Origin: Candidatus Zhuqueibacterota bacterium
GTDB lineage: Bacteria > Zhuqueibacterota > Zhuqueibacteria > Oceanimicrobiales > Oceanimicrobiaceae
Length of the DNA: 56,154 nucleotides
Assembly: GCA_029262005.1 (NCBI GenBank)
Contig: JAJDAG010000097.1
Location: 1 to 56,154 of the forward strand
Reading direction: 5' to 3'
The notes beneath the pieces are model-generated. The model was not told the DNA's origin and made no database searches. It saw nothing but the letters and a program-made list of their open reading frames with translations. Made by a program: the position numbers and the translations under genes. Position 1 is the first letter of the stretch; each line of letters starts with the position of its first letter. Below are positions 14,736 through 31,626 of this stretch, in pieces.

Positions 14736-17321
14736 CTACATTCTCCTTTGCACTACTGCCACTTTCAAGGTTTTCTGCAGGCCGAGTTCCGGCGCTTCGA
14801 TGTGTGCCAGGTAAATGCCCGAAGCCACAAACTTGTTATTTTTGGTCAGCAAGTCCCAGCGCAGGAAAGGCGAGTCATTGTTTTTTTCCAGCGTGCGAAT
14901 GCGTATGCCCGACAATCTGTAAATACGAATTCGGACGTGATTCGGCAAATGGGTAAAGGTGACAAACTGCTCTTCGCCGAACCGCGACGACTCAAGTGAG
15001 TTGTGAGCAAAGTAGGGATTGGGGAAGACATTGGCTGCCTCGAAATTTTCAGCCTGCAGGGTAAGAGTTTGCTCAGAGGTCAAGCCACCGGTTCTGATGA
15101 TGAAAACATCTTCGATGCTGTTCGGAGTGGCGGCCACCGAGTCTGCCGGCGGGCTGAAAACCCGTACCATGATGCCGTTTACAATTGGGAAGTTGTAGCC
15201 GCCACTCTGACTGTATTGATGGTCGAGCACGACTGCCTGTGTGGATAAATCGGTCACATGCCAGAAAAACCGCGATTGCTTATCCTGGTCAAAAGTAACC
15301 TCGTAATCATGGCCGGTGACTTGTTCAGGGAAGACAACATCCCACAAAACCAAACCATCACTGTGGCCTGCGCTGTGTTCTGCTTCCCGGTCAAAAACAA
15401 AATGGGCATTCTCCCCAGCGCCGGGAACAACCTCGATAAAACTAACTTCCGGAATGAATTTGCTGGTGAGAATATCTCCGGGATAGGCTGTAAACCAGTC
15501 ATTCCTAACAGCAGGGGTGTTTTCATTCTGACTAATTCCATTGTGGTCAATGTAGAAAGCGGTAACGCCAAATGTATAAGGATTGCCGAGCTGAACCGGG
15601 AGTCCGGTGAATGCGTCGTGGGTAACTCTCAGGTGTAGTGAGGCGCCTTCCGGGTTTGCCAACGCTGTTGAGTCCATATTATTGACTGCTGGATAGATGA
15701 GGACACGACCTTGTTTCCTGTCAACATAAAAATTGCCGATTTCGTTGTCAAGATCAAAGCGTGCAATGATTTTCGAGTTTTCAACCTCATTCACTGAATC
15801 AGCCGGCACATTGGAGTGGAATTGCTTGACCACAAAACCTTCAAAACGGTAGTCGAAGCCAGAATTTTGCCGGCGAAGTGTCAGGTGACTTTCTACGGGC
15901 AATAGCAAATCGATAAAATGATTGCCTGATTCATCTTTGCCACTGCGGCTGATGAATTTTGCTGACGGGGGCTCGAATCTGTTGAAATTGCTGTCAAAGA
16001 ATCCCTGAACTTTGCGGTCGAGCTCTTTGGCAACGTTGATGCTCTCCAACTCATCATTGCCTCGGCCAACAACAAACGCCGTGACAATATCCTGGACATC
16101 GCCAACATCCATGCGGAAGGGACCGGTGTTAACATGCATTCTTTGGTCGTCACCACCTGTTTGCCTCCAACCGGTGCCGGACACCGGATCGCCGGAAAAC
16201 CGAAACAAAGGGTTATCCTGTGCTGTGCCGCCAATCCCCCAGTACAAAGGATTGACGATATCGCATTGTTGTCCAAGCCCTTGCATAAGGCATCTTATTT
16301 CATCTGCTGTATCTGGGCCATAGTAATAATGCGATAGAGTGGTAAAAGAACTCATCCCAAGTACTTTATGATTGGGAATCACTTCAACGCCCAGATTGGG
16401 CCCCAGAACGCGCCGTGCCGTATCGCCGGGGGAAGCGACCACAGGTCCCTGGAGAATATCAACCAAAAAACAGGGTGGGTTTTGGCCATAGCGTTCATCC
16501 GGGCCTTCGTTGTAAGTATAACCGGCGTTCAGAAGTGTATCACAGCCAACCAGATCATCAGTGTAACTACCCAAATCCGGATCGTGCCACGAGGTAAAGT
16601 AGATGTCCTCAAGTGGTCTTGTGCCTTTGTTAATCAGCCGGAAACGAATAAATGCTGTGCTGCCCAGCGAGGAACCGGCTGCATAAGCCCAGGCCGTTAC
16701 ATGAATCTCCATACCAACGATTCTGGCGCCAGGCCATGCCCGGATTCCAACTTCAACGCCATCGTTTATAGCAAACCACAACATTTGATCACCAAGCAAA
16801 TCCGGTTTGTCAATGTCGGGATTGTAAATTCTGTCGCCATCCAAATCGACAAAATCGGCGCCCTGCTTGACTGCATCGGCCCAGTCAAGATACGCCTCGG
16901 AACCCGGACCATCCTCTGATTTCACCTGATAGATTTTTGCAAATGGGTCATTGCGGTCACCACCAACCGGGCCTTCAATATAATCCTGCACACGAGAAGC
17001 AGACGCAACACCCGAGGCCCACAGTTCGCCATCAATCACACCACTGACCAAGAAACCACTGGAAAATAAAAAGTGAATGTCTGAACCGGCAGGATATTCT
17101 CCGTAACGACCGTGCAGCGGGCCTTCTAAATCGTCGCCGGCATCTGCAATGACACCGTTGTTAGCAAAGGGAAGGCTGAGCTGGTTTCCCTGAAGATATT
17201 TTACGTCACCGATTACTTTAGATTTGTGCAGTGTGGCTGATTTTTCGTATTTGTCGCTTTGTCCAAGGGCAGTTGAAATCAACACTGCGATGCAAAAAAG
17301 GAAAGTGATAATTGGTTTCAT
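14736..17321 (-). CDS. Large secreted protein with Por-type C-terminal sorting domain
   Basis: An 861-residue protein of unknown function. The start is the ATG at 17321, because GGAGG and AAGGAG precede it and a signal peptide (MKPIITFLFCIAVLISTALG) follows at once. The body is Asp/Gly-rich and beta-sheet-like, with segments such as DLDGDRIYNPDIDKPDL that resemble Ca-binding loops. The last ~90 residues (NVFPNPYFAHNS ... RIRIYRLSGIRIRTL ... ASGIYLAHIEA) have the PNP-motif Ig-like layout of type IX secretion sorting domains (type A) or FlgD-like domains. It would therefore be secreted or surface-attached. A close tandem paralogue lies 68 nt upstream. Confidence 0.8.
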   Translation of the reverse strand: MKPIITFLFCIAVLISTALGQSDKYEKSATLHKSKVIGDVKYLQGNQLSLPFANNGVIADAGDDLEGPLHGRYGEYPAGSDIHFLFSSGFLVSGVIDGELWASGVASASRVQDYIEGPVGGDRNDPFAKIYQVKSEDGPGSEAYLDWADAVKQGADFVDLDGDRIYNPDIDKPDLLGDQMLWFAINDGVEVGIRAWPGARIVGMEIHVTAWAYAAGSSLGSTAFIRFRLINKGTRPLEDIYFTSWHDPDLGSYTDDLVGCDTLLNAGYTYNEGPDERYGQNPPCFLVDILQGPVVASPGDTARRVLGPNLGVEVIPNHKVLGMSSFTTLSHYYYGPDTADEIRCLMQGLGQQCDIVNPLYWGIGGTAQDNPLFRFSGDPVSGTGWRQTGGDDQRMHVNTGPFRMDVGDVQDIVTAFVVGRGNDELESINVAKELDRKVQGFFDSNFNRFEPPSAKFISRSGKDESGNHFIDLLLPVESHLTLRRQNSGFDYRFEGFVVKQFHSNVPADSVNEVENSKIIARFDLDNEIGNFYVDRKQGRVLIYPAVNNMDSTALANPEGASLHLRVTHDAFTGLPVQLGNPYTFGVTAFYIDHNGISQNENTPAVRNDWFTAYPGDILTSKFIPEVSFIEVVPGAGENAHFVFDREAEHSAGHSDGLVLWDVVFPEQVTGHDYEVTFDQDKQSRFFWHVTDLSTQAVVLDHQYSQSGGYNFPIVNGIMVRVFSPPADSVAATPNSIEDVFIIRTGGLTSEQTLTLQAENFEAANVFPNPYFAHNSLESSRFGEEQFVTFTHLPNHVRIRIYRLSGIRIRTLEKNNDSPFLRWDLLTKNNKFVASGIYLAHIEAPELGLQKTLKVAVVQRRM

Positions 17322-17389
17322 GGCTCCTTCCTCCAATTCTTTTTTGTCCATACTCATATTTCTACAAACAAATTGCCCGGAAAACTGCG

Positions 17390-19982
17390 CTACCGGCACC
17401 TGCCCCAACACTCTTGCAGCACGGCCACTTTCAAGGTTTTCTGCAGGCCGAGCTCCGGCGCTTCGATGTGTGCCAGATAAACGCCTGAAGCCACAAACAG
17501 GTTATATTCGTTTATCAAGTCCCAGCGCAGGAAAGGTGAAGCATCATTTTTCTCAAGCGTCCGAACCAGTTTGCCGGAAATGGTGTAAATGCGAATGCGA
17601 ACCTGATTCGGCAAATGTGTAAAGGTAACAAAGCGCAACTCACTGAACCGGGACGACTCCATTGAATTGTTGGCAAAATAGGGATTCGGGAACACATTGA
17701 CTTTTGCGAAATTCTCGATCTGCATGAAGTAAGTACTTTTCTCAAGATTCAAGGCGCTGGTTCTGATTAAGAAAACATCTTCCGGACTATTTGGAATGGC
17801 AGTCACTGAGTCTGCCTCAGGGCCGAAAACCCGCACCATAATTCCGTCCTTTATCGGGAAATTGTAGCCGCCGCTCTCGCTGGTCTGCTGGTCGAGCACA
17901 ACGGTTTGTGTGGTCAAGTCTGTCAAACGCCAGAATGTACGGGAATAATCATCGAGGTGAAAAGTAACTTCGTAATCGTCGCCGGTAAGCTGCTCCGGGA
18001 AGACGACGTCCCACAAAACAAAACCATGGCTCTGCCCGGCTGTGCGTTCGGCTTTGCGGTCAAAAACGAAATGTTCATTTTCACCTTCGCCGGGAAACAC
18101 ATCGATAAAACTGACTTCAGGAACGAGTTCGCTGGTAAGAATGTCGGCGGGATATTCGCTAAACCAGTCATCCGTCGCGGTCGCTGTGTTTTCGTTCGGA
18201 ACAATGCCTTTGTGGTCAATGAAAAAAGCCGTGACGCCAAAAGTGTAGGGGTTGCCTAATTGTACCGGCAAATCAGTAAAAGCATCGTGCGTCACTCGCA
18301 GGTGCAACGAGGCACCGGCGGGGTTGGCCAAGGCAACTGAATCCATGTTGTTCACTGCAGGATAGATGAGAATTCGGCCTTTTTCGTCATCGACATAAAA
18401 ATCGCCAATTTCATTGTCGAGGTCAAAGCGGGCAATGACTTTCGAGTTTTCCAGGCCGTTCACTGAATCAACCGGCACATTGGCGTGGAACTGCTTAACG
18501 ACAAAACCCTCGAGGCGGTAGTCAAAGCCAAAACTTTGCCGGCGCTCTGTGAGATGATTTTCCACCGGCAAAAGGAGGTCGATAAAATACCGGCCCAACT
18601 TGCCCTTGCCGCTGCGGGCAATGAGCTTTGCCGGTTGCTGTGGTTCAAATATGCTGAAATTGCTATCAAAGATGCCTTGAACTTTGCGGTCGATCTCTTT
18701 GGCAACGGTTATGCTCTCCAGCTCATCATTGCCACGGCCAATTACAAACGCCGTGACAATATCCTGAACATCGCCTACATCCATGCGGAACGGGCCGGTG
18801 TTAACATGCATTCTTTGGTCATCACCGCCTGTTTGCCGCCAATCCGTGCCGGTAACCGGCTCGCCGGAAAACCAGAACAAGGGATTATCCTGCGCAGATC
18901 CACCAATGCCTCTGGTCAAAGGATCGAAGATATCCCCATCATGTGTAAGTCCTTGCATTGCATTTCTGATTTGATATAAGGAACCATAATAGTTTACTCC
19001 GCTTGGATCTCCCTGTATGCCAACCGTAAACGAACTCATCCCAAGTACTTTGTAATCAGAAATGACCTCAACGCCCAGATTGGGTCCCAGAATACGCCGC
19101 GCCGTATCGCCCGGCGAGGCAACCACGGGTCCTTGAAGAATATCGACGATAAAACAGGGTGGGTTTTGGCCATAGCTGTCATCCGGGCCTTCGTTGTAAG
19201 CATAACCGGCATTTAATAGCGTATCACACATCGGTGTAGCCTCCAAGATCCGGATCTTGCCATGAGGTGAAATACATGTCTTCAATTGGCCGCGTGCCTT
19301 TGTTAATCAGTCGAAAACGAATAAAGGCCGTGCTTTGTAGAGAAGAACCAACACCGGCATAAGCCCAGGCTGTTATTTGAATTTCCATACCAACAATTTG
19401 TGAGCCTGGTACCATGCGAGCAGCAGGTAAAATCCCGTCATTAATGACAAACCAGAGCATCTGGTCGCCGAGCAAGTCCGGTTTGTCAATATCTGGATTG
19501 TAGCTTCCGTCGCCATCCACATCGACAAAATCAGCGCCTTGATTTACGGCATCAGCCCAGTCAAGATATGCTTTAGATCCGGGGCCGTCCTCTGATTTCA
19601 CCTGATAAATCTTCACGAGCGGGTCGTTGCGATCGCTGCCAACCGGGCCTTCGAAATAATCCTGAAGTCGCATGGCTGAGGCCACACCTGAAACCCACAG
19701 GTCACCATCTGCGAAACCACTGAGCCAGAAACCGCTGGAAAATAAAAAGGTAATGTCGGAGCCTGCAGGATATTCTCCGTAATGATACTCAAATTCGGCT
19801 GCGTCTGCAATGACGCCGTCATTAACGAAGGGAATGCTCAGGTGGTTGGCCCGGAGAATTTTAACGTCTCCGATTATCTTAGACTTGCCCAATGTAGTGG
19901 ATTTTTGGTATTTGTCGCTTTGTCCGTGGGCGGTCGACAGCAAAACTGTGAAACAAAAAAAGAAGGTGATAATTGGTTTCAT
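17390..19982 (-). pseudogene. Tandem paralogue of the large secreted protein, frameshifted
   Basis: Two open frames, 19224-19982 (signal peptide MKPIITFFFCFTVLLSTAHG onward) and 17390 to about 19230, together match the neighbour 14736-17321 from end to end. At the break the neighbour encodes Tyr-Thr-Asp-Asp-Leu-Val-Gly-Cys-Asp, while this copy runs Tyr-Thr-Asp-Val-stop and resumes in another frame at Cys-Asp-Thr. Aligning the nucleotides shows 11 nt missing near 19228-19233. Restoring them gives a single frame of 868 codons (2593 + 11 = 2604 nt). GGAGG lies 7 nt before the ATG at 19982. The C-terminal sorting domain is intact. It is either a recent pseudogene or a sequencing/assembly error. 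Confidence 0.85.
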
Positions 19983-20091
19983 GGCCATCCTCCTGCAATT
20001 CTTTCATGATTAGTAGTGGGTTTGGGAAGAACTTCGCACATAAGTCAATTTTCTGCACGGCCTTACTGGTTTATACAACAGTCATGGAAAC

Positions 20092-20851: not shown

Positions 20852-21727
20852 ATGCTTACTTTGTTAAAAATTTTGCTCACCGCGCTGACCTTTGTTTGCC
20901 TGCCCACGCAAGCTCAACTCGCCGCACAGGAGTCCGGTATTTGGGTGACCGGCAGGGGCACAGCCTACCTCAGCGACGACCTCACCGCGGCTGACGCCAA
21001 ACTCAGAGCCCGACGTAAAGCACGCGCCGATGCTATCGAGCGGGCGCTCGGAGTCAACATCACTGCCGAAAAATTTTTACAGGAATTCGAAGTCTCCAGG
21101 TCTCAGGGTGAAGCCGGCGAAACCGGGGAGTCCTTTTCCAACTACATCCGCGAAAGCCGCCGCGGCCGGATCGTCGATGAAGAAGCGTGGCAGGAAAAAT
21201 CCGAGCTTACTTATTTTGCCGACGGCGGCCAGGTGGTGAAATATGTCGCCCACAACCGGTTTCGCGTCCTGAAAGAAGAGAATCCGCCGGACCCGAATTT
21301 CAAGCTTGACCTTATGCTTTCCAAGAGCCAGTACCAGGAAGGTGAAGGCGTTGTTTTCAGCGTGAATGCAACACAGGATTGCTATCTGACTGTTTTTAAT
21401 CTTGCCGCAAACGATTCGGTCTACTTGATTTTCCCAAACGTGGTTGAAAAATCGAGTAAGCAGAAAGCCAACCAGAAACGCACAATTCCTGGTTTTGGCT
21501 ACTCTTTCACCACGGCGCTGCCCGCCGGTAAAGATGTGGCCATGGAATCGATCATTGCAGTGGCCAGCAAGGATTCACTGGTGTTTCACGGCAAGACCAG
21601 GCATCGGCCCGGAGAAGGCTACTCAGACATGTGGAAAACCGGTCTCAATGACGTTTGGCGCTGGGTCGCGGAAGTTGATGCGGACAGGCGGGTTGAGGCC
21701 ATTGAATCTTTTAAAATTTATCGGTAA
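20852..21727 (+). CDS. Secreted DUF4384-domain protein
   Basis: A 291-residue protein starting at the ATG at 20852, behind GAGGGGG; the signal peptide ends near LPTQAQLAAQ. Residues 30-140 form an N-terminal part rich in Ala/Arg with the flavour of LPP20/FlgT-like domains (WVTGRGTAYL ... KARADAIERALGVNI). The C-terminal part (LDLMLSKSQYQEGEGVVFSVNATQDCYLTVFNL ... VYLIFPN) matches the DUF4384 beta-sandwich seen beside kinases and caspase-like proteases. It is the first gene of the plus-strand module, 31 nt upstream of the caspase-like gene. Function is unknown; a periplasmic sensor or adaptor is a guess from the neighbourhood. Confidence 0.8.
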   Translation: MLTLLKILLTALTFVCLPTQAQLAAQESGIWVTGRGTAYLSDDLTAADAKLRARRKARADAIERALGVNITAEKFLQEFEVSRSQGEAGETGESFSNYIRESRRGRIVDEEAWQEKSELTYFADGGQVVKYVAHNRFRVLKEENPPDPNFKLDLMLSKSQYQEGEGVVFSVNATQDCYLTVFNLAANDSVYLIFPNVVEKSSKQKANQKRTIPGFGYSFTTALPAGKDVAMESIIAVASKDSLVFHGKTRHRPGEGYSDMWKTGLNDVWRWVAEVDADRRVEAIESFKIYR

Positions 21728-21758
21728 AATTCCAGCGCTGGTACAGGAGGACATAAAA

Positions 21759-23792
21759 ATGCTGAAGTCAAGATACGTCATATTTTTGATAATTGCGGGG
21801 CTAATGCTCAGTGTTGATTCATTCACGAACACAGCTCAGGCCCAATGGTACAACGCCTACAAGAGTGGCTTGAAAGCCATGGACCGCGGTGACTGGCAGC
21901 AGGGTGTTTCCTGGCTTACCCAGGCCCTGAACAAGAAGTCAAAAGACACCAAAAAAATTCGGGCCAAGGGGGTCATGTTTATTGAGTACTACCCAAACCG
22001 CGAGTTGGGCATTTGCTACTTCAATCTTGGACAGGCGGAGAAAGCCTTGCATCATCTCACTACATCACTCCGGCAAGTCCGCACACGCCGGGCCACCAAG
22101 TACCTCACCCGCCTCTCCCGCGGCGACCACCCAAAGCCGGTCGCCAGCGAACCCGTCATCAGTGAACCCATCGTCAAGGCCGTGCCGCGCACACCGGTTT
22201 CGCGCAGGAAGCAACCGTCTCACCCGGCACAACTGGCTGTCAATCTGTTCTTTGTCGAACCCTCTAATAACGGTTTTCTCGACGCAGAAGAAGCAGGTAA
22301 AATTATTATCGATTTGAGCAACAAAGGCCGGGGCGATGCTTATGATTTGCAGGTAAAAGTCAGCACCGAAGGCGACGTCCCCGGACTCACAATTGGCTAC
22401 CCGCGCAAGATCGACCACCTGGCGCCAGGCGTGCAGGAGTCTGTGGTTGTGCCCATCCAGTGCGGAGCCTCGGCTTCCTCCAGGCAGGTCAGACTCAAAA
22501 TTGCGGTCAGCGAAGCCAACGGCTTTGATTTGGACCCGCCGAGCTACATGACCTTGAGTACCCAGGCCGGCTCACCGCCCGAACTGGTGATTTCTGAAAT
22601 CGGCATCAACGACAATTCACAGAATCGACGGATTGAGCCCCGGGAGATGGTGGATATCACGGCCCGCATTAAGAATACAGGCCGGGGACAGGCCAGGCTG
22701 GTCAAGGCTTCCGTGCAAGCGGGTGCAAATGTTTTTCTAACGCCAGAGTCCAAAACTGCGTTCGACCTCGGCGACCTCGGACAGGGAGAATATAAGGACG
22801 TCACCTTTACGGTTTTCACCAACAGCAAAGCCAGCAGCGTCCCCGTGGACATTTTATTGACCGAATCCCGAGGCCGCTTCGACAAGACGCTGCCGCTCGA
22901 TCTACCTTTCGGCAAACCCCAGGTTGCCAGCAAGGATTTCGTGGTCCGGGGCGGGACCGGCCCGGACAGCTTCAAGAGTACGCCGCTGACAGTGGACGTA
23001 GATCAGAACATTCCAAAGAGCCGGAACAAGAATTCTGACGCCATTGCTATCATTCTGGGCGTCGAGTCCTATTCCAGCATTCCCGGTGTGACCTTCGCCA
23101 AACGGGATGCCGCAATTTTCAAGGAATATGCGACTTCGGTGCTGGGTGTGCCCAACAGCAAGAATAATGTCTACTACAGAACAGACCAGGAAGTCACCAA
23201 GGGCGAGCTTCTGAAATTGTTCACCGGAAATGGCTGGCTCAAGAAACGCGCACATTCCACTTCCGATGTCTACATTTTCTTCGCCGGCCACGGCGCGCCT
23301 GACATTAAAGATGAGTCGCCCTACCTGATTCCGTTTGATGGCGATGCCAACTATCCGTCCCAAACCGGATTCAGCCTGGCCCTGATGTACGAAGAGCTGG
23401 CACGGCTCAACGCGAAGTCCGTGACGGTGTTTCTCGACGCTTGTTTCAGCGGTGGCACAAGAGAAAACCGGATGTTGCTTGCTGACGCCCGGCCGGTTTT
23501 AATCAAAGTCAAGAACCCAATTTTGTTGTCTGACAAACTGGTGGTCTTCTCGGCCTCGTCCGGCAGCGAAATCAGCAGCGGCTACCCGGACATGAAACAC
23601 GGCCTGTTCACCTACTTTCTGCTCAAGGGACTGCGTGGAGAAGCCGACGGCAATCGCGACGCGACCCTCACCGTAGCGGAGCTTGAATCCTATGTTGTTA
23701 CCCAGGTGAGCCGGACCGCCGGAACACTTGACCGGGAACAAACGCCACAGGTGGTTGGACGCAATAAGAGCAAGGCGCTGGTGAATTTCTAG
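21759..23792 (+). CDS. Secreted caspase-like protease (peptidase C14 family)
   Basis: A 677-residue protein starting at the ATG at 21759, behind ACAGGAGG. Order: signal peptide (1-28); a TPR-like stretch (30-110); a Pro-rich linker; two Ig-like or CARDB-like beta domains (160-265 and 275-395); and a C-terminal caspase/gingipain-fold domain (425-677). The catalytic dyad is His511 (FFAGHGAP) and Cys562 (FLDACFSGG). ILGVESYSSIPGV opens the domain as in metacaspases. The signal peptide places it in the periplasm, unlike cytoplasmic defence caspases. It follows the DUF4384 gene in the same operon. Specificity (Arg/Lys or Asp) cannot be read. Confidence 0.9.
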   Translation: MLKSRYVIFLIIAGLMLSVDSFTNTAQAQWYNAYKSGLKAMDRGDWQQGVSWLTQALNKKSKDTKKIRAKGVMFIEYYPNRELGICYFNLGQAEKALHHLTTSLRQVRTRRATKYLTRLSRGDHPKPVASEPVISEPIVKAVPRTPVSRRKQPSHPAQLAVNLFFVEPSNNGFLDAEEAGKIIIDLSNKGRGDAYDLQVKVSTEGDVPGLTIGYPRKIDHLAPGVQESVVVPIQCGASASSRQVRLKIAVSEANGFDLDPPSYMTLSTQAGSPPELVISEIGINDNSQNRRIEPREMVDITARIKNTGRGQARLVKASVQAGANVFLTPESKTAFDLGDLGQGEYKDVTFTVFTNSKASSVPVDILLTESRGRFDKTLPLDLPFGKPQVASKDFVVRGGTGPDSFKSTPLTVDVDQNIPKSRNKNSDAIAIILGVESYSSIPGVTFAKRDAAIFKEYATSVLGVPNSKNNVYYRTDQEVTKGELLKLFTGNGWLKKRAHSTSDVYIFFAGHGAPDIKDESPYLIPFDGDANYPSQTGFSLALMYEELARLNAKSVTVFLDACFSGGTRENRMLLADARPVLIKVKNPILLSDKLVVFSASSGSEISSGYPDMKHGLFTYFLLKGLRGEADGNRDATLTVAELESYVVTQVSRTAGTLDREQTPQVVGRNKSKALVNF

Positions 23793-23865
23793 GTGGACTC
23801 AAAATTACCTGGTTTTGCATTTCATCACATATTAATTATTATTTCAATTAGAAGGAGGTAGGAAA

Positions 23866-24450
23866 ATGAAGTACTTGAGACTCGCAACTGTGGTTCTGAC
23901 AACTTTGTTGTTGACCGGCAGCAGCTTTGCCCAGAGTCGAAGCAATCAGATGGAAATCTTTATCGGTGGCGCTTTCCCACTCAAGCCCGATGGCATCAAA
24001 GATGTCTATAAAGTTGGCGTCAGCGCTCACCTGCAGTATGTCAGGTTCATCAGCCCCAGATTTGGCATCAGCCTCGGTATCGCCAGTGAAGGGTTCACCG
24101 AAACCGACGAGCTCAACGACGCTGGTATCGAAGGCGAGCTTACCGTGAGCGAGGTCGGCATTGGCCTTCGACCCTATCTCAGCTCACTTGAGTCAAACCT
24201 GCAGTTCTATTTGTTCGGAATGGCCACTTATAATGCGGTCAAAGCCACATTTGCCGATGACTTTGGCGGTGCTATCAGCAGCGACGAAAGGAAGCCGGGC
24301 GTGGCGTTTGGCGCCGGTATTGAAGTACCGTTCGGTTCACGCTTCAACCTGCTGTTTCAAGGGCTTGCAAGAGTAATCTTTACCGACACTGCCGACGGTG
24401 AGTTTGAACGTTTTCAGTTTATCGGGTTGACCGGCGGTATCGCCTTTTAA
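23866..24450 (+). CDS. Small outer-membrane beta-barrel protein
   Basis: A 194-residue protein. GAAGGAGGTAGG lies just before the ATG. A signal peptide (to SSFAQ) is followed by alternating amphipathic strands (LQYVRFISPRFGISLGIA, EVGIGLRPYL, LQFYLFGMATYNAV) and a terminal Phe, as in OmpA/OmpW-sized eight-stranded barrels. No binding motif is apparent. It follows the caspase-like gene by 73 nt on the same strand. Confidence 0.72.
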   Translation: MKYLRLATVVLTTLLLTGSSFAQSRSNQMEIFIGGAFPLKPDGIKDVYKVGVSAHLQYVRFISPRFGISLGIASEGFTETDELNDAGIEGELTVSEVGIGLRPYLSSLESNLQFYLFGMATYNAVKATFADDFGGAISSDERKPGVAFGAGIEVPFGSRFNLLFQGLARVIFTDTADGEFERFQFIGLTGGIAF

Positions 24451-24599
24451 AACAAAATCGACGTGACCGAGACACGATAGGCTGTTTAATATTGTTTCTC
24501 AGACCACATTCCAACAACATGTGTTGGAGCAACCGTGTATTGGATGTTCTTAGTCTGATACCACCCTATTTATCTTAACCAACCTCTATGGAGGAAATC

Positions 24600-25181
24600 A
24601 TGCGTTCATTTATTTCACTAGTCGTTGTTGTGGCTTTGGCACTCAGCACCTTTGGTTGCGGCGGCTCCAAGCCGTTGACCCAGACCCGCATCGATCCCAT
24701 GCCTGAATGGTTCAGCAATCCGCCGCAAGACCCCAACTTTCTGTACGCCGCCCGTACAGCATCTTCCCGGGATCTGAATCTGGCAATTGAAAAGGCGACC
24801 ACCACTGCCCGTGCGGAAATCGCACGCCAGTACGAGGTCAAAGTCGAAGGCCTCACCAAGAGTTTCCAGGAAGAAGTTGGAACGAACGAAGATGCCGAGA
24901 TCAACCAGTTGTTTTCTCAGACCATCAAGACCGTGGTTTCCACGCAGTTGATGGGCAGCCGTGCGGCCAAGACTTCGCACGTCAAAGACGGCATGAATTA
25001 TCGTGCGTACGTGCTGGTCGAGTACCCCATCGGCGCTGCCAACCAGGCCTTTATGAATGCCTTGAAGGCGAACCAGAACATGTACACGCGTTTCCGTTCC
25101 TCCGAATCATTTAAGGAAATGGATGACGAAGTTCAGAAATACGAAGAGTGGAAAAAGGCGCAAGCATCCAAAATGCAGTAG
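24600..25181 (+). CDS. LPP20-like outer-membrane lipoprotein
   Basis: A 193-residue lipoprotein. The start is the ATG at 24600 behind GGAGG; an ATG at 24588 overlaps that site. The lipobox LSTFGC gives a lipidated cysteine near residue 19. The sequence PEWFSNPPQDPNFLYAARTASSRDLNLAIEKATTTARAEIARQ follows the LPP20 family pattern (WF-x-NPP then an Ala-rich helix). The C-terminus is a charged helix. It could be an envelope-bound partner of the module; no enzymatic motif is seen. Confidence 0.75.
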   Translation: MRSFISLVVVVALALSTFGCGGSKPLTQTRIDPMPEWFSNPPQDPNFLYAARTASSRDLNLAIEKATTTARAEIARQYEVKVEGLTKSFQEEVGTNEDAEINQLFSQTIKTVVSTQLMGSRAAKTSHVKDGMNYRAYVLVEYPIGAANQAFMNALKANQNMYTRFRSSESFKEMDDEVQKYEEWKKAQASKMQ

Positions 25182-25969
25182 CGTGCGTTAACCCACGCTT
25201 TCTCTTGACGACTTGGCTCATCGCTGTGGCGATGCTGGCCACAGCCGGTGTTTCGGCGGCACAGGAGTATCCCGAGTGGTTTCTCAACCCAGGTGCTTTG
25301 GACTGCCGAACGCCGGTCGTGGGCTATTCCTATCCTGCATATCATGCTGACTCGGCTGCCGTCCTGGCCATCCGTGACGGCTTCATCAACTACGCAAGAC
25401 AACAGGCGTTGAGGATCAGCGGCGGTCAGGCGTTCTGGAACACGGAAATCGGTATGTTCTGGATGGGGTCGAATTTCGTCGAGAGCTTTGATTCGAGCCG
25501 GGCCGGCAACGCAGAAAATATCCTGGTTGCACAGGACACAGTGTTTCGCGACAGCTTCATTTTTACGCTTCTGACCGGCGCGGGCTGTGAGTTGAGCGAC
25601 CATGCTCTGGCCACGCGCCGGGTGCAGGCCTTGGCACCACCTGCGTGGGTAGGAGGAACGCCGAAAGATTCTGCTTTCCATTACGCAGTCGGTCTCGCGC
25701 CGCAGTACTTCTATGAGTTAAGCTCCTGGCGTGAGGCGGAGAAATATGCCTGCCGCAACCTGGCGCGAACCATTCTGACCAGTGTGAAATCAGTCGGCAA
25801 AATCGGCTACCAGGGGCAGGAAATCATCAATGAAGAAGTACCGGTTCTGCTGCGGGACTGGGAGGTCGCTGCGCGGTGGATGAATCCTGACGAGAAGATA
25901 TTTTATGTGCTCGTCAGAATGCCGAAGCAACAGTTCGGCGCCCTTGAGCCCGAATCGGTCTCAAAATAG
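25148..25969 (+). CDS. Secreted protein related in style to the preceding LPP20-like lipoprotein
   Basis: A protein of up to 273 residues that overlaps the end of the preceding gene. The start is uncertain: GTG at 25148 is given, but a TTG near 25204 would yield a compact signal peptide (LTTWLIAVAMLATAGVSAAQ). After the signal, EYPEWFLNPGALDCRTPVVGYS and repeated Ala-rich helices echo the WF-x-NP pattern of the LPP20-like neighbour, with two such blocks (about 40-150 and 165-265). Cysteines at several positions may form disulfides. No known function; conserved placement would suggest that it works with the kinase gene that follows 49 nt later. Confidence 0.65.
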   Translation: MEKGASIQNAVACVNPRFLLTTWLIAVAMLATAGVSAAQEYPEWFLNPGALDCRTPVVGYSYPAYHADSAAVLAIRDGFINYARQQALRISGGQAFWNTEIGMFWMGSNFVESFDSSRAGNAENILVAQDTVFRDSFIFTLLTGAGCELSDHALATRRVQALAPPAWVGGTPKDSAFHYAVGLAPQYFYELSSWREAEKYACRNLARTILTSVKSVGKIGYQGQEIINEEVPVLLRDWEVAARWMNPDEKIFYVLVRMPKQQFGALEPESVSK

Positions 25970-26018
25970 CGGCCCATCCTGTTCCGCTTCTCAAACGAGA
26001 ATCTCTGGAAATCATCAC

Positions 26019-28283
26019 GTGAGCAAATTTAATAAACTTTGTCCCGGCTGTTTCACTGCAAACGAGTCTGATGGCGCCTGTCCGTCTTGCGGCTACGACA
26101 TGGGTGCTTACCGCAGCCCTCTGGCGCTTCACGACCATGCCTTTCTCAACGACCAGTATTTGGTGGGCCGGGTCCTGGGAAAACCAGGCGGGTTCGGCAT
26201 CACCTATTTTGGCTGGGACACCAGGCTGGAAACCGCCATTGCCATCAAAGAATACCTTCCGCGTGAATTTGTTGGCAGAGGTAAAGATGGCACCACCGTC
26301 ACGCCGCATTCCGAGGAAGACAGCAAAACTTTTGAACAGGGCCTGCAAGAGTTCCTGCAAGAGGCGCGCACCCTCGCCCGCTTCGACCATTCGAATCTTG
26401 TCCGAGTCCGAAATTTTTTTGAGCAGAATGATACCGCCTACCTGGTCATGGACTATCTCGAAGGCTGCAATCTCGAAGAGCACCGCAAAAAGGCCGATGG
26501 CAAACTGCCGGAAAAAGAAGCCATCGGCATCATGATTCAGGTGCTGGACGGCCTCACCCACGTACATGTGGATAACCTGCTGCACCGTGACATCAAGCCG
26601 CAAAACATCTACCTCACGAAGGATGGGCGGGCAATTCTGTTGGATTTTGGCGCTGCGCGCGTGGCCATGTCAGGCTTCACCCGCAGTATGTCTGTGATCC
26701 TGACACCGGGATTTGCGCCGTATGAACAGTACTCCAGGCGGGGTCTGCAAGGGCCATGGACCGACGTTTATGCCTGCGCCGCTACCCTATACTACATTAT
26801 AACCGGCAAGGTTTTGCCTGACTCTGCAGACGAAGCGAATGATGCCGCCTTTTCAGCGCTCGATAGCGACGGCAAGGATCTTTCTCTTTCTTTGCACCAA
26901 GCGTTACGCCCGGCTCTGGCGGTCCTGCCGGAAAATCGTACGCAAACTGCGTCTGATTTTAAGACCGCACTTGAACGTGCCCGAAACCTGGTCGCCAGCG
27001 ATGACATCAAAACCGTGGTAATGCACACCCCGCAGCCTGCTGCGGCGACAGCGCCCCCGGCCAGAAAGAAGGCACCGGTGACGCGATATGCTGTTCTACT
27101 GCTTATTATAATTGCCGCAGCAACTTATTTTTTTGTTCCACGCTCAGCGCAACCACCGCAATCTGCTACAACGATACCGAAGGAAGAAGGAGGACAGCAA
27201 CTGGCAACCAAAGAAGCCGCAAGTGCGGGCGCTGTTCTCGATCAGCCTGGCCAGCCGAAAAAAGGACAAACCGGCGAGGCCGATGAAGCTGACATGTTTG
27301 CGAATCACCTGAGCGAAGGCGATCGTCTGTTTGCCGCCAAATCTTTTGCATATGCCAAGAACGAGTATGTAAAAGCCCTGGCCCTGAATCCGGAAGACGA
27401 CCATGCGAAAGACCGGCTCCAGAAATGCGACGACGAAATCGAATCGGCTCGCACCCTGGCCAAGCGTGAGGCCGCGTATGCAAAATATCGCAAGCAAGCG
27501 GATGGCTTCTTCAAGAAAGGAAATCTTGCAAAAGCGAAGACCGGCTACGCCAATGCCCTCAAGAGCAAGCCTGGGGATATCTTTGCGGCGCGCCGTCTGC
27601 AACAGTGCGACGAGATGGTCTTTATCAAAGGCAGCGCCTTCCTGATGGGTACCCGAGAATCGAAAGATGAACCCGTGCACATGGTGATTCTCGGCTCATT
27701 CTTGATGGACAAGCATGAAGTCACGGTCAAACAATACAGCGAGTTTCTAAAGGCGAAAAAATACGATGTCCCGCCTGAATGGCAGAAACAACTTACTCGG
27801 CCGAATCACCCGGTGGCGTACGTTTCATGGGATGATGCCAACGCTTATGCGAAATGGGCGGACAAACGTTTGCCCACCGAGGCTGAATGGGAGTACGCTG
27901 CGCGCGGCGGCCTCGAGAACAAAAGATACCCCTGGGGAGATGAGCCGCCCGAGTCCCGGCCTGAGCAGGCCAGGCGGTTCGGCGCCGAAAATCAGAAATC
28001 CTTGCGGCAAGTTAATCTCTACTCAGCCAACGGCTTTGGTCTGTTTGATATGGCCGACAACGCCTGGGAGTGGTGTTCGGACTGGTTTCAATTTGACTAC
28101 TACAAAAACAGTCCCGACCGCAACCCGCGGGGCCCGAAAACCGGCAGTCGCCGGGTCGTGCGCGGCATCATAGCGTCTTCGGGTTTCGCCGCATACAATT
28201 TCAAATGCTCTACGCGATTTGCTCAGGAACCAAATCAAAAAAAGCGTTTCATTGGCTTTCGCTGCGCGCGTGACCTGCCGTAA
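26019..28283 (+). CDS. Membrane Ser/Thr protein kinase with TPR and periplasmic SUMF1/FGE-like domain
   Basis: A 754-residue protein starting at GTG 26019 (MSKFNKLCPGC). Order: zinc ribbon (Cys8, 11, 21, 24); Hanks-type kinase (about 45-320) with GGFGITY (57-63), Lys77 (IAIKEYLP), HRD (189-191) and DFG (209-211); a membrane helix (about 355-373); a TPR-like helical part (430-540); and a C-terminal formylglycine-generating-enzyme/sulfatase-modifying-factor fold (about 550-754, with LPTEAEWEYAARGG, YPWGDEP, VRG, FIGFRCAR). The FGE-like domain lacks the first cysteine of the catalytic pair, so it is probably a binding or sensing domain. The kinase faces the cytoplasm and the FGE-like part the periplasm. 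Confidence 0.92.
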   Translation: MSKFNKLCPGCFTANESDGACPSCGYDMGAYRSPLALHDHAFLNDQYLVGRVLGKPGGFGITYFGWDTRLETAIAIKEYLPREFVGRGKDGTTVTPHSEEDSKTFEQGLQEFLQEARTLARFDHSNLVRVRNFFEQNDTAYLVMDYLEGCNLEEHRKKADGKLPEKEAIGIMIQVLDGLTHVHVDNLLHRDIKPQNIYLTKDGRAILLDFGAARVAMSGFTRSMSVILTPGFAPYEQYSRRGLQGPWTDVYACAATLYYIITGKVLPDSADEANDAAFSALDSDGKDLSLSLHQALRPALAVLPENRTQTASDFKTALERARNLVASDDIKTVVMHTPQPAAATAPPARKKAPVTRYAVLLLIIIAAATYFFVPRSAQPPQSATTIPKEEGGQQLATKEAASAGAVLDQPGQPKKGQTGEADEADMFANHLSEGDRLFAAKSFAYAKNEYVKALALNPEDDHAKDRLQKCDDEIESARTLAKREAAYAKYRKQADGFFKKGNLAKAKTGYANALKSKPGDIFAARRLQQCDEMVFIKGSAFLMGTRESKDEPVHMVILGSFLMDKHEVTVKQYSEFLKAKKYDVPPEWQKQLTRPNHPVAYVSWDDANAYAKWADKRLPTEAEWEYAARGGLENKRYPWGDEPPESRPEQARRFGAENQKSLRQVNLYSANGFGLFDMADNAWEWCSDWFQFDYYKNSPDRNPRGPKTGSRRVVRGIIASSGFAAYNFKCSTRFAQEPNQKKRFIGFRCARDLP

Positions 28284-28368
28284 GCTGCGTGACGCGGAGG
28301 TCCTTCCGGTACCTGACACGCCAGAAATTCATCTGCGTATTTGTCGCTAATAAACTCAGGATGGGACT

Positions 28369-29871
28369 ATGAATTCTTCAAAGCTAACCGCTGTCATCGG
28401 TGCTGCAATCGTTACAACACTGGGGTTCTCCCCGTTTGCCGGGCTGGCACATGCACAGAAGGACTATCAGGAGTGGCTCAAGAAAGACAAGCAAGCATTT
28501 GAGAAATACCTGGAAGAGCGTGACAAAGAGTTTTCCCGCTTCCTGAAAAAAGAATGGCAGTCGCTTGAGCTGAATCACGGCGTCAAACGGGACGCGCAGC
28601 CCAAACCGGTCAAAATGCCCCGGGCGGAAGCCATTCCAATCAGGCCCATCGACCGATCCGCTCCGCTGGTGAAGGACATTCCGTTGCCCGAATACAAACC
28701 GCGACCCGTGCCACAAAAAAAACTTGACCTGCAGCTCGGCTCCCCAGACGCAGACGCACTGGATATCGATTATTTCGGCCTCGCGTTGAGAGTCAGTGTT
28801 GACCCGGGCTTTCGCCAGCCATTTGGCAGCCCGATCGATAACAACAGCATCAGCGCCTACTGGACCAGGCTGGGCGGTCTGAAATACAAAGTGATCATGG
28901 CTGAAACAGAGTTCCTGGCTCAAACGCTCGAACTGAACGACTGGGGTTATGGTTTGCTGCTGAACAAAGTCGCCACCACGCTTTTCGCAACCTCAAGGAA
29001 TGATCGTAACCTGTTGCTCTGGTTCCTGCTGTCAAAATCGGGTTACGATGCCAGGGTGGGCTACGAGGATGGCAGAGTTTTTCTGCTGCTGCCTGCCATG
29101 AATGTCTTGTATGGCACGCGCTATTTTGTTATCCAGGGCACGCGTTACTATCTTGTTTCTTTCGACAACCGGCCTGAAAATGCCAAATCATTGCACACCT
29201 ACGATGGCCGCTACCCTGGGGCCACCCGCGTGTTCAATCTTGCTCTCAGCAAATTGCCTAACATCCCGCAAAGACTGGTTGAAAGGCCGGTGAATTTCAG
29301 CTACCCTGCAGAATCGCACACGGTCAATATCAAATATGACCGGTCGATCATCGACTTTTTTCAGCACTATCCGCTCACCGACCTGCCGGTTTATTTTGGG
29401 GCCCCCATCTCCGCCGGCGCTGCCAGGGCGCTGCTGAATGATTTGAAACCGCTGGTGCTCGGCAAGACTGAAACCGAAGGCGTCAATACGCTTCTTCGGT
29501 TTGTGCAGACGGCTTTCGAGTATCAGACAGACCAGGAGCAGTTCGGTCGCGAGAGATTTTTGTTCGCCGAGGAGACGCTTTCCTACCCGTACTCGGATTG
29601 CGAAGACCGAGCAATTCTATTCGCCTACCTGGTGACGACCTTGCTCGGGCTGGAGGTGATTGGGCTGGACTATCCGGGACACATTGCCACAGCCGTGCAT
29701 TTCAACCAGTCGGTGGCCGGCGATTATGTCATGCACGGCCGCAAAAAATTTGTGATTTGCGACCCTACCTATATCAATGCTGTTCTGGGCATGACCATGC
29801 CCGCGATCAAAGATGCGAAGCCGAAAGTCATGATTCTGCCAACCACAGCATTCCTGAGTCGAAAGATGTAA
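28369..29871 (+). CDS. Secreted transglutaminase-like protein
   Basis: A 500-residue protein with a signal peptide (to LAHAQ) and a charged helical region (30-75). The C-terminal domain has the transglutaminase-like triad: Cys411 in YSDCEDRA, His444 in GHIATAVHF and Asp465 in ICDPTY, the order C-H-D of that fold. It could act as a protease, amidase or crosslinker in the periplasm. It follows the kinase by 85 nt on the same strand, behind GGATGGGACT. The middle region (115-330) has no recognised domain. Confidence 0.82.
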   Translation: MNSSKLTAVIGAAIVTTLGFSPFAGLAHAQKDYQEWLKKDKQAFEKYLEERDKEFSRFLKKEWQSLELNHGVKRDAQPKPVKMPRAEAIPIRPIDRSAPLVKDIPLPEYKPRPVPQKKLDLQLGSPDADALDIDYFGLALRVSVDPGFRQPFGSPIDNNSISAYWTRLGGLKYKVIMAETEFLAQTLELNDWGYGLLLNKVATTLFATSRNDRNLLLWFLLSKSGYDARVGYEDGRVFLLLPAMNVLYGTRYFVIQGTRYYLVSFDNRPENAKSLHTYDGRYPGATRVFNLALSKLPNIPQRLVERPVNFSYPAESHTVNIKYDRSIIDFFQHYPLTDLPVYFGAPISAGAARALLNDLKPLVLGKTETEGVNTLLRFVQTAFEYQTDQEQFGRERFLFAEETLSYPYSDCEDRAILFAYLVTTLLGLEVIGLDYPGHIATAVHFNQSVAGDYVMHGRKKFVICDPTYINAVLGMTMPAIKDAKPKVMILPTTAFLSRKM

Positions 29872-30225
29872 TTTTCCGAATCAGGCGGGCAGAGGAAATC
29901 ATTTGGCTGGATGGCTAGCAGCGGGCTGCGTGGGAATCTGCCATCCGGCACGGACACGGGTCTTCAGCTTCGCTGCTCATTGCATGGAGGCTCTGCTTCT
30001 CTACCCTGGTATGAACGCGACAAAACCGATTCGCTTTTGTTAGGTTAGGAGCAGGCCTTAAAAAGTCATGGTGAAAATCAGGCGGTGTCTCATAGAAAAA
30101 TTGGCCATGTGACTTTGTGGTAAAATTCATGAATAGAGCAGATTAATATCAAACGCAAATGTATTACGGAATATTATTAACCTTCCTCTTGTTGGGAGTG
30201 GTCAAAAATAAAAACGGTGGGAAAC
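29872..30225. other. Gap between transglutaminase-like and HtrA genes
   Basis: About 350 nt without a supported gene; frames here are short and lack ribosome sites. It may separate the HtrA gene into its own transcript. No clear terminator was found. Confidence 0.4.
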
Positions 30226-31626
30226 ATGAACTTCAATAAATTTCGTACTGCTTTGCCGGCAACGGCGATCTTGCTGCAAATAACAGTAGCTTTGGCGCAG
30301 CCCAGTCTGCGCACTTTAAACAAACTAAGCGGTGAATTTGAAGCACTGTCGGTAAAAATCAGTCCGGCTATTGTACAAATTCTCTCGACAGGTTACGCCC
30401 CAAACATAAACCAGTCAGCCGGCGTTTTGGTGAAACAACGAAGCAGTGGCTCCGGTGTGGTCCTCGATCCGGACGGCTATATAGTCACCAACGCGCACGT
30501 AGTGGATGGCGCCAAAAGGCTGCAGGTGGTTTTATCGGTGCCGGATGCAAATGCTTCGGACAGCTCTATTCTAAAGATGCGGGGTAAAATAGTCGGCGCG
30601 CAACTTGTGGGCATCGATCGCGAGACTGATTTGGCGGTGATAAAGGTACAGGCATCCAGGCTGCCATCGCTGCATCTTGGCGATTCCGACCATGTTAAGC
30701 AGGGCCAGATTGTCATGGCGTTTGGCAGCCCGCTCGGCCTGGAAAACACGGTGACTATGGGCGTGGTCAGTTCTGTGGCGCGCCAGCTTCGCAGCGAAGA
30801 CCCGATGATCTATATTCAGACGGACGCTCCAATCAATCCGGGCAATAGCGGCGGGCCACTGGTGAGCATGGGTGGCGAAGTGGTCGGTATCAACACGCTG
30901 ATTTTTTCGCAATCCGGCGGCAGCGAAGGCATTGGCTTTGCCGCACCCAGCAACATCGTTAAGGCCATATACGAACAGCTTAAAGTCAACGGTCGGGTAC
31001 ACCGTGGCGAAATCGGCGCGGTTGTGCAGACTATTACGCCGGTTATGGCGCACGGACTTAGCCTGCCGGATGTTGGCAGCGTGATTGTGGCTGATGTTAA
31101 GCCGTACAGTGCAGCGGACAAGGCCGGTCTGCAAATTGGCGATATTATCCTGAAATTGGACTACAAAGTGATGGAAAACGGCCGCCAGTTTTACGTGAAT
31201 TTGTATCGCAAAACAGTGGAGGAAGCGGTGATTATCGAGATTCAACGCGGCGGCGTCAACAAAATGCTGAAAGTAGAAATCAGTGAGCGCCCGGATGATC
31301 CGGAACGATTCTCCGACCTGGTGAGTCCGGAAAAAAATCTCATCCCGCAACTGGGTATTCTGGCTCTGGATGTTAACGAAACCACGCAAAAAATGCTGCC
31401 GCGCCTGCGCATTGACTCAGGTGTAATCGTTGCTAACTACGCCAACCTGTTTTACGACAGCGAAGCCTTCCAGCCCGGCGATGTGATCCACGCGGTGAAC
31501 AACCAGGCAGTGGCCTCCGTGGACGATTTACGTACCATTGTGAACAGCCTCAAAATTTACGATTCGGTTGTGGCTCAGGTGGAGCGCTTCGGGCAGTTGC
31601 TCTATGTTTCGTTTGAGATGGAGTGA
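30226..31626 (+). CDS. HtrA/DegP-type periplasmic serine protease with two PDZ domains
   Basis: A 466-residue protein. The ATG at 30226 is preceded by GGTGGGAAAC. A signal peptide (to VALAQ) is followed by a trypsin-like domain with the catalytic His91 (TNAHVV), Asp135 (ETDLAVIK) and Ser208 (PGNSGGP), then two PDZ domains (about 265-355 and 380-466). HtrA proteases degrade or refold damaged envelope proteins. Its orientation and position after the kinase/caspase/transglutaminase set fit an envelope-quality role, but the 350-nt gap means that it may be transcribed separately. Confidence 0.92.
   Translation: MNFNKFRTALPATAILLQITVALAQPSLRTLNKLSGEFEALSVKISPAIVQILSTGYAPNINQSAGVLVKQRSSGSGVVLDPDGYIVTNAHVVDGAKRLQVVLSVPDANASDSSILKMRGKIVGAQLVGIDRETDLAVIKVQASRLPSLHLGDSDHVKQGQIVMAFGSPLGLENTVTMGVVSSVARQLRSEDPMIYIQTDAPINPGNSGGPLVSMGGEVVGINTLIFSQSGGSEGIGFAAPSNIVKAIYEQLKVNGRVHRGEIGAVVQTITPVMAHGLSLPDVGSVIVADVKPYSAADKAGLQIGDIILKLDYKVMENGRQFYVNLYRKTVEEAVIIEIQRGGVNKMLKVEISERPDDPERFSDLVSPEKNLIPQLGILALDVNETTQKMLPRLRIDSGVIVANYANLFYDSEAFQPGDVIHAVNNQAVASVDDLRTIVNSLKIYDSVVAQVERFGQLLYVSFEME

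Follow-up and report, generated by a model that had tools for sequence, protein, structure and literature searches.

Most discussion of bacterial caspases treats them as effectors of cell death or defence in the cytoplasm. The locus described here, part of a window of 56,154 nucleotides (the whole stretch of DNA that was analysed), raises the question of what a seemingly exported caspase homologue does in a run of genes that also encodes outer-membrane-type proteins, a second cysteine peptidase and a membrane-anchored kinase. We consider it plausible, if somewhat short of an even chance, that seven of these genes (g1-g7, Table 1) form a proteolytic module in the periplasm that is associated with the outer membrane and built on an SHS2 scaffold of a non-flagellar kind. 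The location and linkage of this module are well supported, and its mechanism and substrate are put forward as conjecture.

Table 1. Features of the gene run, numbered by window position (residue ranges for domains within g1)
Feature	Coordinates	Strand	Assignment	Basis
g1	20852..21727	+	exported; FlgT_N-like SHS2 domain with predicted beta-hairpin insert (~30-141), Ig-like DUF4384 (~148-291)	
g2	21759..23792	+	exported TPR + CARDB-like Ig + caspase (C14) protein	Pfam
g2, TPR part	21759..22208	+	homologous to N-terminus of TPR-CsgG/FlgO-like protein of sister families	
g3	23866..24450	+	outer-membrane beta-barrel protein	OMP_b-brl 2.8e-5, under Pfam cut-off
g4	24588..25181	+	LPP20 (SHS2-fold) lipoprotein, lipobox cysteine at residue 24	Pfam LPP20 1.6e-7
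g5	25148..25969	+	exported LPP20-like protein	hhalign to LPP20 profile
g6	26019..28283	+	zinc-ribbon - Ser/Thr kinase - one TM - TPR - FGE-like domain	Pfam, motifs
g7	28369..29871	+	exported transglutaminase-like cysteine peptidase, predicted triad C411-H438-D465	model, fold, alignment
g8	30217..31626	+	HtrA/Do-family serine protease, probably outside module	TIGR02037 E 3.6e-104, below model's cut-off

A compact run of seven genes

The earlier note on this DNA described eight same-strand genes, and all eight are indeed present as open reading frames on one strand (window 20852-31626), with Pfam matches that fit the named domains for most of them. Successive gaps from g1 to g7 measure 31, 73, 137, -34, 49 and 85 bp, and 345 bp separate g7 from the HtrA gene, whose product has trypsin and PDZ domains by Pfam. 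The order g1-g7 is conserved at 80-94% identity in G027, the closest relative that carries the set and a member of another genus in the family of the window's genome (G000, 98.7% complete); no HtrA copy was found at the corresponding place in G027. Because of the 345 bp gap and the missing syntenic copy we leave HtrA, which the earlier note had counted in, out of the unit, and it is probably a separate gene. The module is a compact run of seven genes at 20852-29871, and this grouping exceeds chance in that its order is kept in a second genus and subsets of it are linked in many phyla. Promoter and terminator scans gave results close to shuffled expectation and carry no weight in what follows.

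An exported caspase homologue

By Pfam, g2 matches Peptidase_C14 (1e-11; 45.5 bits against a curated cut-off of 21.4), CARDB (1.8e-8) and, weakly, TPR. Numbered from the ATG at 21759, the caspase dyad consists of H511 (codon 23289) and C562 (codon 23442), exactly where the earlier note had placed it, and an alignment with nine homologues shows both residues to be invariant, so the conservation check that the note had proposed turned out in its favour. From its sequence, then, g2 is a Peptidase_C14 caspase homologue and a predicted protease. By analogy with orthocaspases, its cleavage sites would be expected to have a basic P1 residue.

The exported members of the run have signal-peptide- or lipobox-like N-termini, and g2 is signal-peptide-like in this respect, as expected from the earlier suggestion that the caspase lies outside the cytoplasm. 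A simple signal-peptide rule, which is a plain criterion and no trained predictor, accepts 87 of 96 caspase open reading frames compared with 33% of other frames and 7% of internal segments. Export bears directly on the idea of a programmed-death or anti-phage effector, in which the caspase would kill the cell upon a kinase signal. A part in cell death has been suggested for prokaryotic caspases (PMC3501461), and such caspase homologues and kinases do occur in defence libraries, as generic PADLOC matches. Here, however, the conserved partners are outer-membrane-type proteins, and the window genes contain no recognised PADLOC system and match only generic caspase, kinase and protease models. 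We judge this reading very improbable and rank it as the least likely of all because the caspase group is exported.

Prokaryotic caspase homologues (metacaspases and orthocaspases) resemble g2 in the C14 domain, the His/Cys dyad and the N-terminal TPR. Fusions of C14 domains to FGE and DUF4384 have been described (PMC3501461, PMC7475262, PMC6426788), and some homologues start with helices that probably act as signal peptides (PMC3501461). Also known are forms that are membrane-anchored or exported, fusions with TPR or FGE, and operons of varied make-up (PMC3501461). What differs from the known homologues is the setting, a conserved cluster that brings an exported CARDB-caspase together with LPP20 lipoproteins, a transglutaminase-like peptidase and a DUF4384 protein with an apparent FlgT_N-like domain. 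A search of open-licence papers turned up no account of such a cluster, which is no proof of novelty.

The TPR part of g2 may point to the origin of this arrangement. Over this part, the caspase proteins of G000 and of G027 share 37-39% identity with the TPR-CsgG protein of a related genome (G068), and neither G000 nor G027 yielded a full-length TPR-CsgG when the family's eight genomes were searched. The homology together with the missing full-length protein fits a scenario in which the CARDB-caspase may have replaced CsgG in the G000/G027 lineage.

Candidate scaffold proteins resembling flagellar parts

The Pfam match of g1 to DUF4384 is clear (2e-16). Its AlphaFold model (pLDDT 84.5) places a beta-alpha-hairpin-beta domain ahead of an Ig-like one, and the secondary structure fits SHS2 with a hairpin insert. 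FlgT_N is matched weakly by 8 of 39 g1 homologues (best E 0.0011) and not by g1 itself; comparison with the FlgP structure gave E 0.12, and profile comparison with LPP20 a probability of only 23%. In a whole-protein fold search the matches fell mainly on the Ig-like C-terminal half, with beta-sandwich structures at Z ~8-9, and FlgP and FlgT were not among the matches listed. Since that search mainly covered the Ig part, their lack is no evidence against a FlgT_N link, and as judged from the model the N-terminus of g1 appears to be a FlgT_N-like SHS2 domain with a hairpin insert.

The score of g4 for LPP20 is 32.1 bits (cut-off 25.9), its lipobox cysteine is invariant in 17/17 sequences, and its closest solved relative is Helicobacter pylori Lpp20 (5ok8, E 2.3e-6); with domain and lipobox both present, g4 is predicted to be an LPP20 lipoprotein. 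The second half of g5 aligns with the LPP20 profile by hhalign at 97.5% (E 6.6e-12), and its homologue in a Poribacteria locus (L095) has two LPP20 stretches, suggesting that g5 probably comprises two LPP20-like domains. Relatives of g3 adjoin a TPR-CsgG gene at L042-L045, L049-L051, L053 and L069.

These proteins recall components of flagellar disks. As an SHS2-fold lipoprotein with a double-SHS2 partner, g4 and g5 resemble FlgP and FlgQ, of which FlgQ itself resembles two FlgP repeats (PMC12222027); g1, with its apparent FlgT_N-like domain and predicted hairpin insert, would resemble FlgT; and the TPR-CsgG/FlgO-like relative found in sister lineages resembles FlgO. The SHS2 hairpin insert correlates with ring formation of the FlgP/FlgT type (PMC12222027). 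It speaks against a disk that H. pylori Lpp20, the solved protein nearest to g4, was no disk component and that its deletion gave no motor phenotype (PMC11756786). The flagellar P-ring gene FlgI, which turned up in 28 of the 69 genomes searched in the phylum, had no match in G000 or G027, so that we do not regard g1, g4 and g5 as parts of a flagellar motor. They differ from FlgP, FlgQ, FlgT and FlgO also in that their genes are linked to DUF4384 and to peptidases. The combination of a FlgT_N-like g1 with a FlgP/FlgQ-like LPP20 pair in a genome with no detected P-ring gene appears to be new.

A second exported peptidase with a LapG-like fold

No Pfam or NCBIfam match was obtained for g7. Its model (pLDDT 83.7) has structural matches that span the transglutaminase superfamily, the closest being LapG (Z 11.0, 14-16% identity). 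The earlier note had read a triad of C411, H444 and D465. The cysteine and the aspartate are right, and the histidine is not: because H444 varies among homologues, we assign H438, which sits in a PGH motif, and C411-H438-D465 (codons 29599, 29680 and 29761) is invariant in 13 homologues. The model is thus that of a transglutaminase-like fold with a C-H-D triad. In core, triad and export g7 is like LapG, from which it is set apart by its low identity and by a large additional N-terminal region.

This likeness brings in the main rival, a Lap-like release or maturation of surface proteins, in which the LapG-fold peptidase and the caspase would cut adhesins or other surface proteins with no ring involved, the cleavage signal being relayed by the inner-membrane kinase-FGE protein. 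LapG being the closest fold of g7 argues for it, as does the presence in the same run of g6, an inner-membrane protein with cytoplasmic signalling and periplasmic domains; in addition, genes for proteins with type IX-like sorting domains lie near several related loci. Against it stand the low identity between g7 and LapG and the occurrence of the transglutaminase gene also in places with no adjoining kinase-FGE gene; moreover, no LapA-like adhesin or LapD-like receptor was recognised, though no dedicated search was made. On balance we hold the Lap-like reading, taken as a whole, to be rather unlikely.

A kinase-FGE protein added locally

Starting at GTG 26019 or ATG 25905, g6 matches Pkinase (9.9e-32) and FGE-sulfatase (4.1e-59) in Pfam, has the kinase HRD and DFG motifs and contains a single hydrophobic segment (residues 357-373). 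Its FGE domain lacks a cysteine at either catalytic position, and the catalytic cysteine pair is found in none of the 18 caspase-linked FGE domains that we aligned (g6 and 17 others). A domain of this kind is likelier to bind or sense something than to act as a formylglycine-generating enzyme. Its solved relatives include the non-catalytic FGE-fold proteins PorK/GldK and TvpA, from which g6 differs in that a TM segment joins the domain to a Ser/Thr kinase.

The earlier note had treated the kinase-FGE gene as a member of the module. It is present, with one TM segment that fits the membrane anchor proposed there, but it is not a conserved partner, being full length only in G000 and G027 among the eight genomes of the family. 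We therefore see the fusion as a lineage-specific, local addition to the module. Exported FGE-fold proteins with no kinase lie near caspases in 15 of 78 loci. From the position and topology of g6 we infer that it would be the sensor of the module, and a sensor-to-protease envelope response of the kind suggested in the earlier note may operate.

Linkage across genomes

A search of 82 genomes of the phylum with the DUF4384 protein gave nine strong matches (E < 1e-20), each of which adjoins a strong caspase match. When 69 genomes of the phylum were searched with Pfam models, 49 DUF4384 matches exceeded the Pfam cut-off, and 22 of them have a caspase no more than 6 kb away, where 0.28 would be expected. 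The PF00656 genome search had overlooked the window's own caspase, and three caspases from the protein search were added by hand; these account for 4 of the 22 pairs, leaving 18 without them. A contig scan across phyla yielded 78 caspase loci from many phyla, with DUF4384 (33), FGE (15), LPP20 (10) and transglutaminase (4) as partners within 5 kb, so more than half of these loci have no DUF4384 inside that distance. Of all loci pooled, 41 have caspase and DUF4384 genes at most 3 kb apart, on the same strand in every case (41/41), with a gap of 0-2 bp in 15. DUF4384 follows the caspase in 35 of the 41, and the window shows the minority order. A Mantel test on these pairs gave r 0.53, which none of 2000 permutations reached, a value that common descent of the genomes can likewise give. 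The co-occurrence check proposed earlier thus comes out positively, in that caspase, DUF4384, LPP20 and transglutaminase are linked across phyla.

In other families the OMP, the transglutaminase and the LPP20 pair accompany a TPR-CsgG/FlgO-like gene. This raises the second rival, that two independent modules, caspase with DUF4384 and OMP with transglutaminase and LPP20 pair, are adjacent by chance; the two are on separate contigs in G069, and the latter is seen with no caspase in G068, G047, G041 and G045. However, they are rejoined in Poribacteria, where caspase, transglutaminase, DUF4384, LPP20 and double LPP20 stand in one row (L095), and caspase-DUF4384-LPP20 recurs at L110, L111, L120, L135, L143 and L147, with the LPP20 pair also at L120 and L135. 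The TPR homology between g2 and the TPR-CsgG protein of the second module likewise argues against independence, and we find chance adjacency unlikely. That subsets of the run recur as neighbours in many phyla suggests an undescribed cell-envelope protease system.

How the module might work

The make-up of the set, in which two exported cysteine peptidases stand beside a lipoprotein, a beta-barrel and exported SHS2 proteins, indicates the periplasmic face of the outer membrane. In the scaffold-based module that we favour, g4, g5 and g1 would assemble beneath the outer membrane into a scaffold of SHS2 type that is probably ring- or disk-shaped, resembling FlgP/FlgQ/FlgT outside any flagellum, with the g3 beta-barrel as its outer-membrane partner. 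The g2 caspase and the LapG-fold peptidase g7 would act at or near this scaffold and cleave periplasmic or surface proteins. In the G000/G027 lineage, g6, an inner-membrane kinase with a non-catalytic periplasmic FGE domain, may sense the periplasm and signal inward. Ring assembly, contact between caspase and scaffold, the direction of signalling and the substrate are presumed parts of this scheme. A widespread, so far undescribed non-flagellar outer-membrane disk machine of FlgT/FlgP/FlgQ-like proteins, positioning an exported caspase and a LapG-fold peptidase, strikes us as a doubtful extension. A conserved group of exported caspases with outer-membrane scaffold partners in many phyla, if borne out, would imply an envelope role that is directly testable, and flagellar-disk-type proteins would be at work outside flagella.

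Neighbouring genes

Several other arrangements were seen at related loci. In a Nitrospirae MAG, DUF4384 comes after four consecutive caspase genes whose products all start with a lipobox-like sequence (L122:9245-17377, +). Exported caspases also occur in the cultured, non-pathogenic relatives Flexithrix dorotheae DSM 6795 and Flammeovirga sp. SJP92 (L123, L142), where no DUF4384 was seen next to the caspase. In G060 a truncated DUF4384 domain lies at a contig end, upstream of a transglutaminase gene (L057:3493-6759, -). In G069 the LPP20/transglutaminase module is immediately followed by type III CRISPR-like genes (Cas10 palm, RAMPs and a weak Card1 CARF; L053:13087-19753, +).

In G068, FHA-FHA-PBP-RodA-PP2C genes beside the LPP20 and transglutaminase genes had suggested a link to the cell wall. 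This FHA-FHA-PBP-RodA/FtsW-PP2C cluster, which resembles the actinobacterial fhaA/pbpA/rodA/pstP set, is conserved in nine genomes of the phylum (L155-L162; L049:213-5783, -), and in eight of the nine it stands apart from the LPP20 module, so we regard its adjacency in G068 as incidental and have dropped the link.

Within the window, two minus-strand frames upstream of the run (17390-19285 and 19224-19988) together resemble a disrupted copy of the 891-aa protein encoded next to them (14736-17411, -), the break falling where the frames overlap, as in a pseudogene or through a sequencing error.
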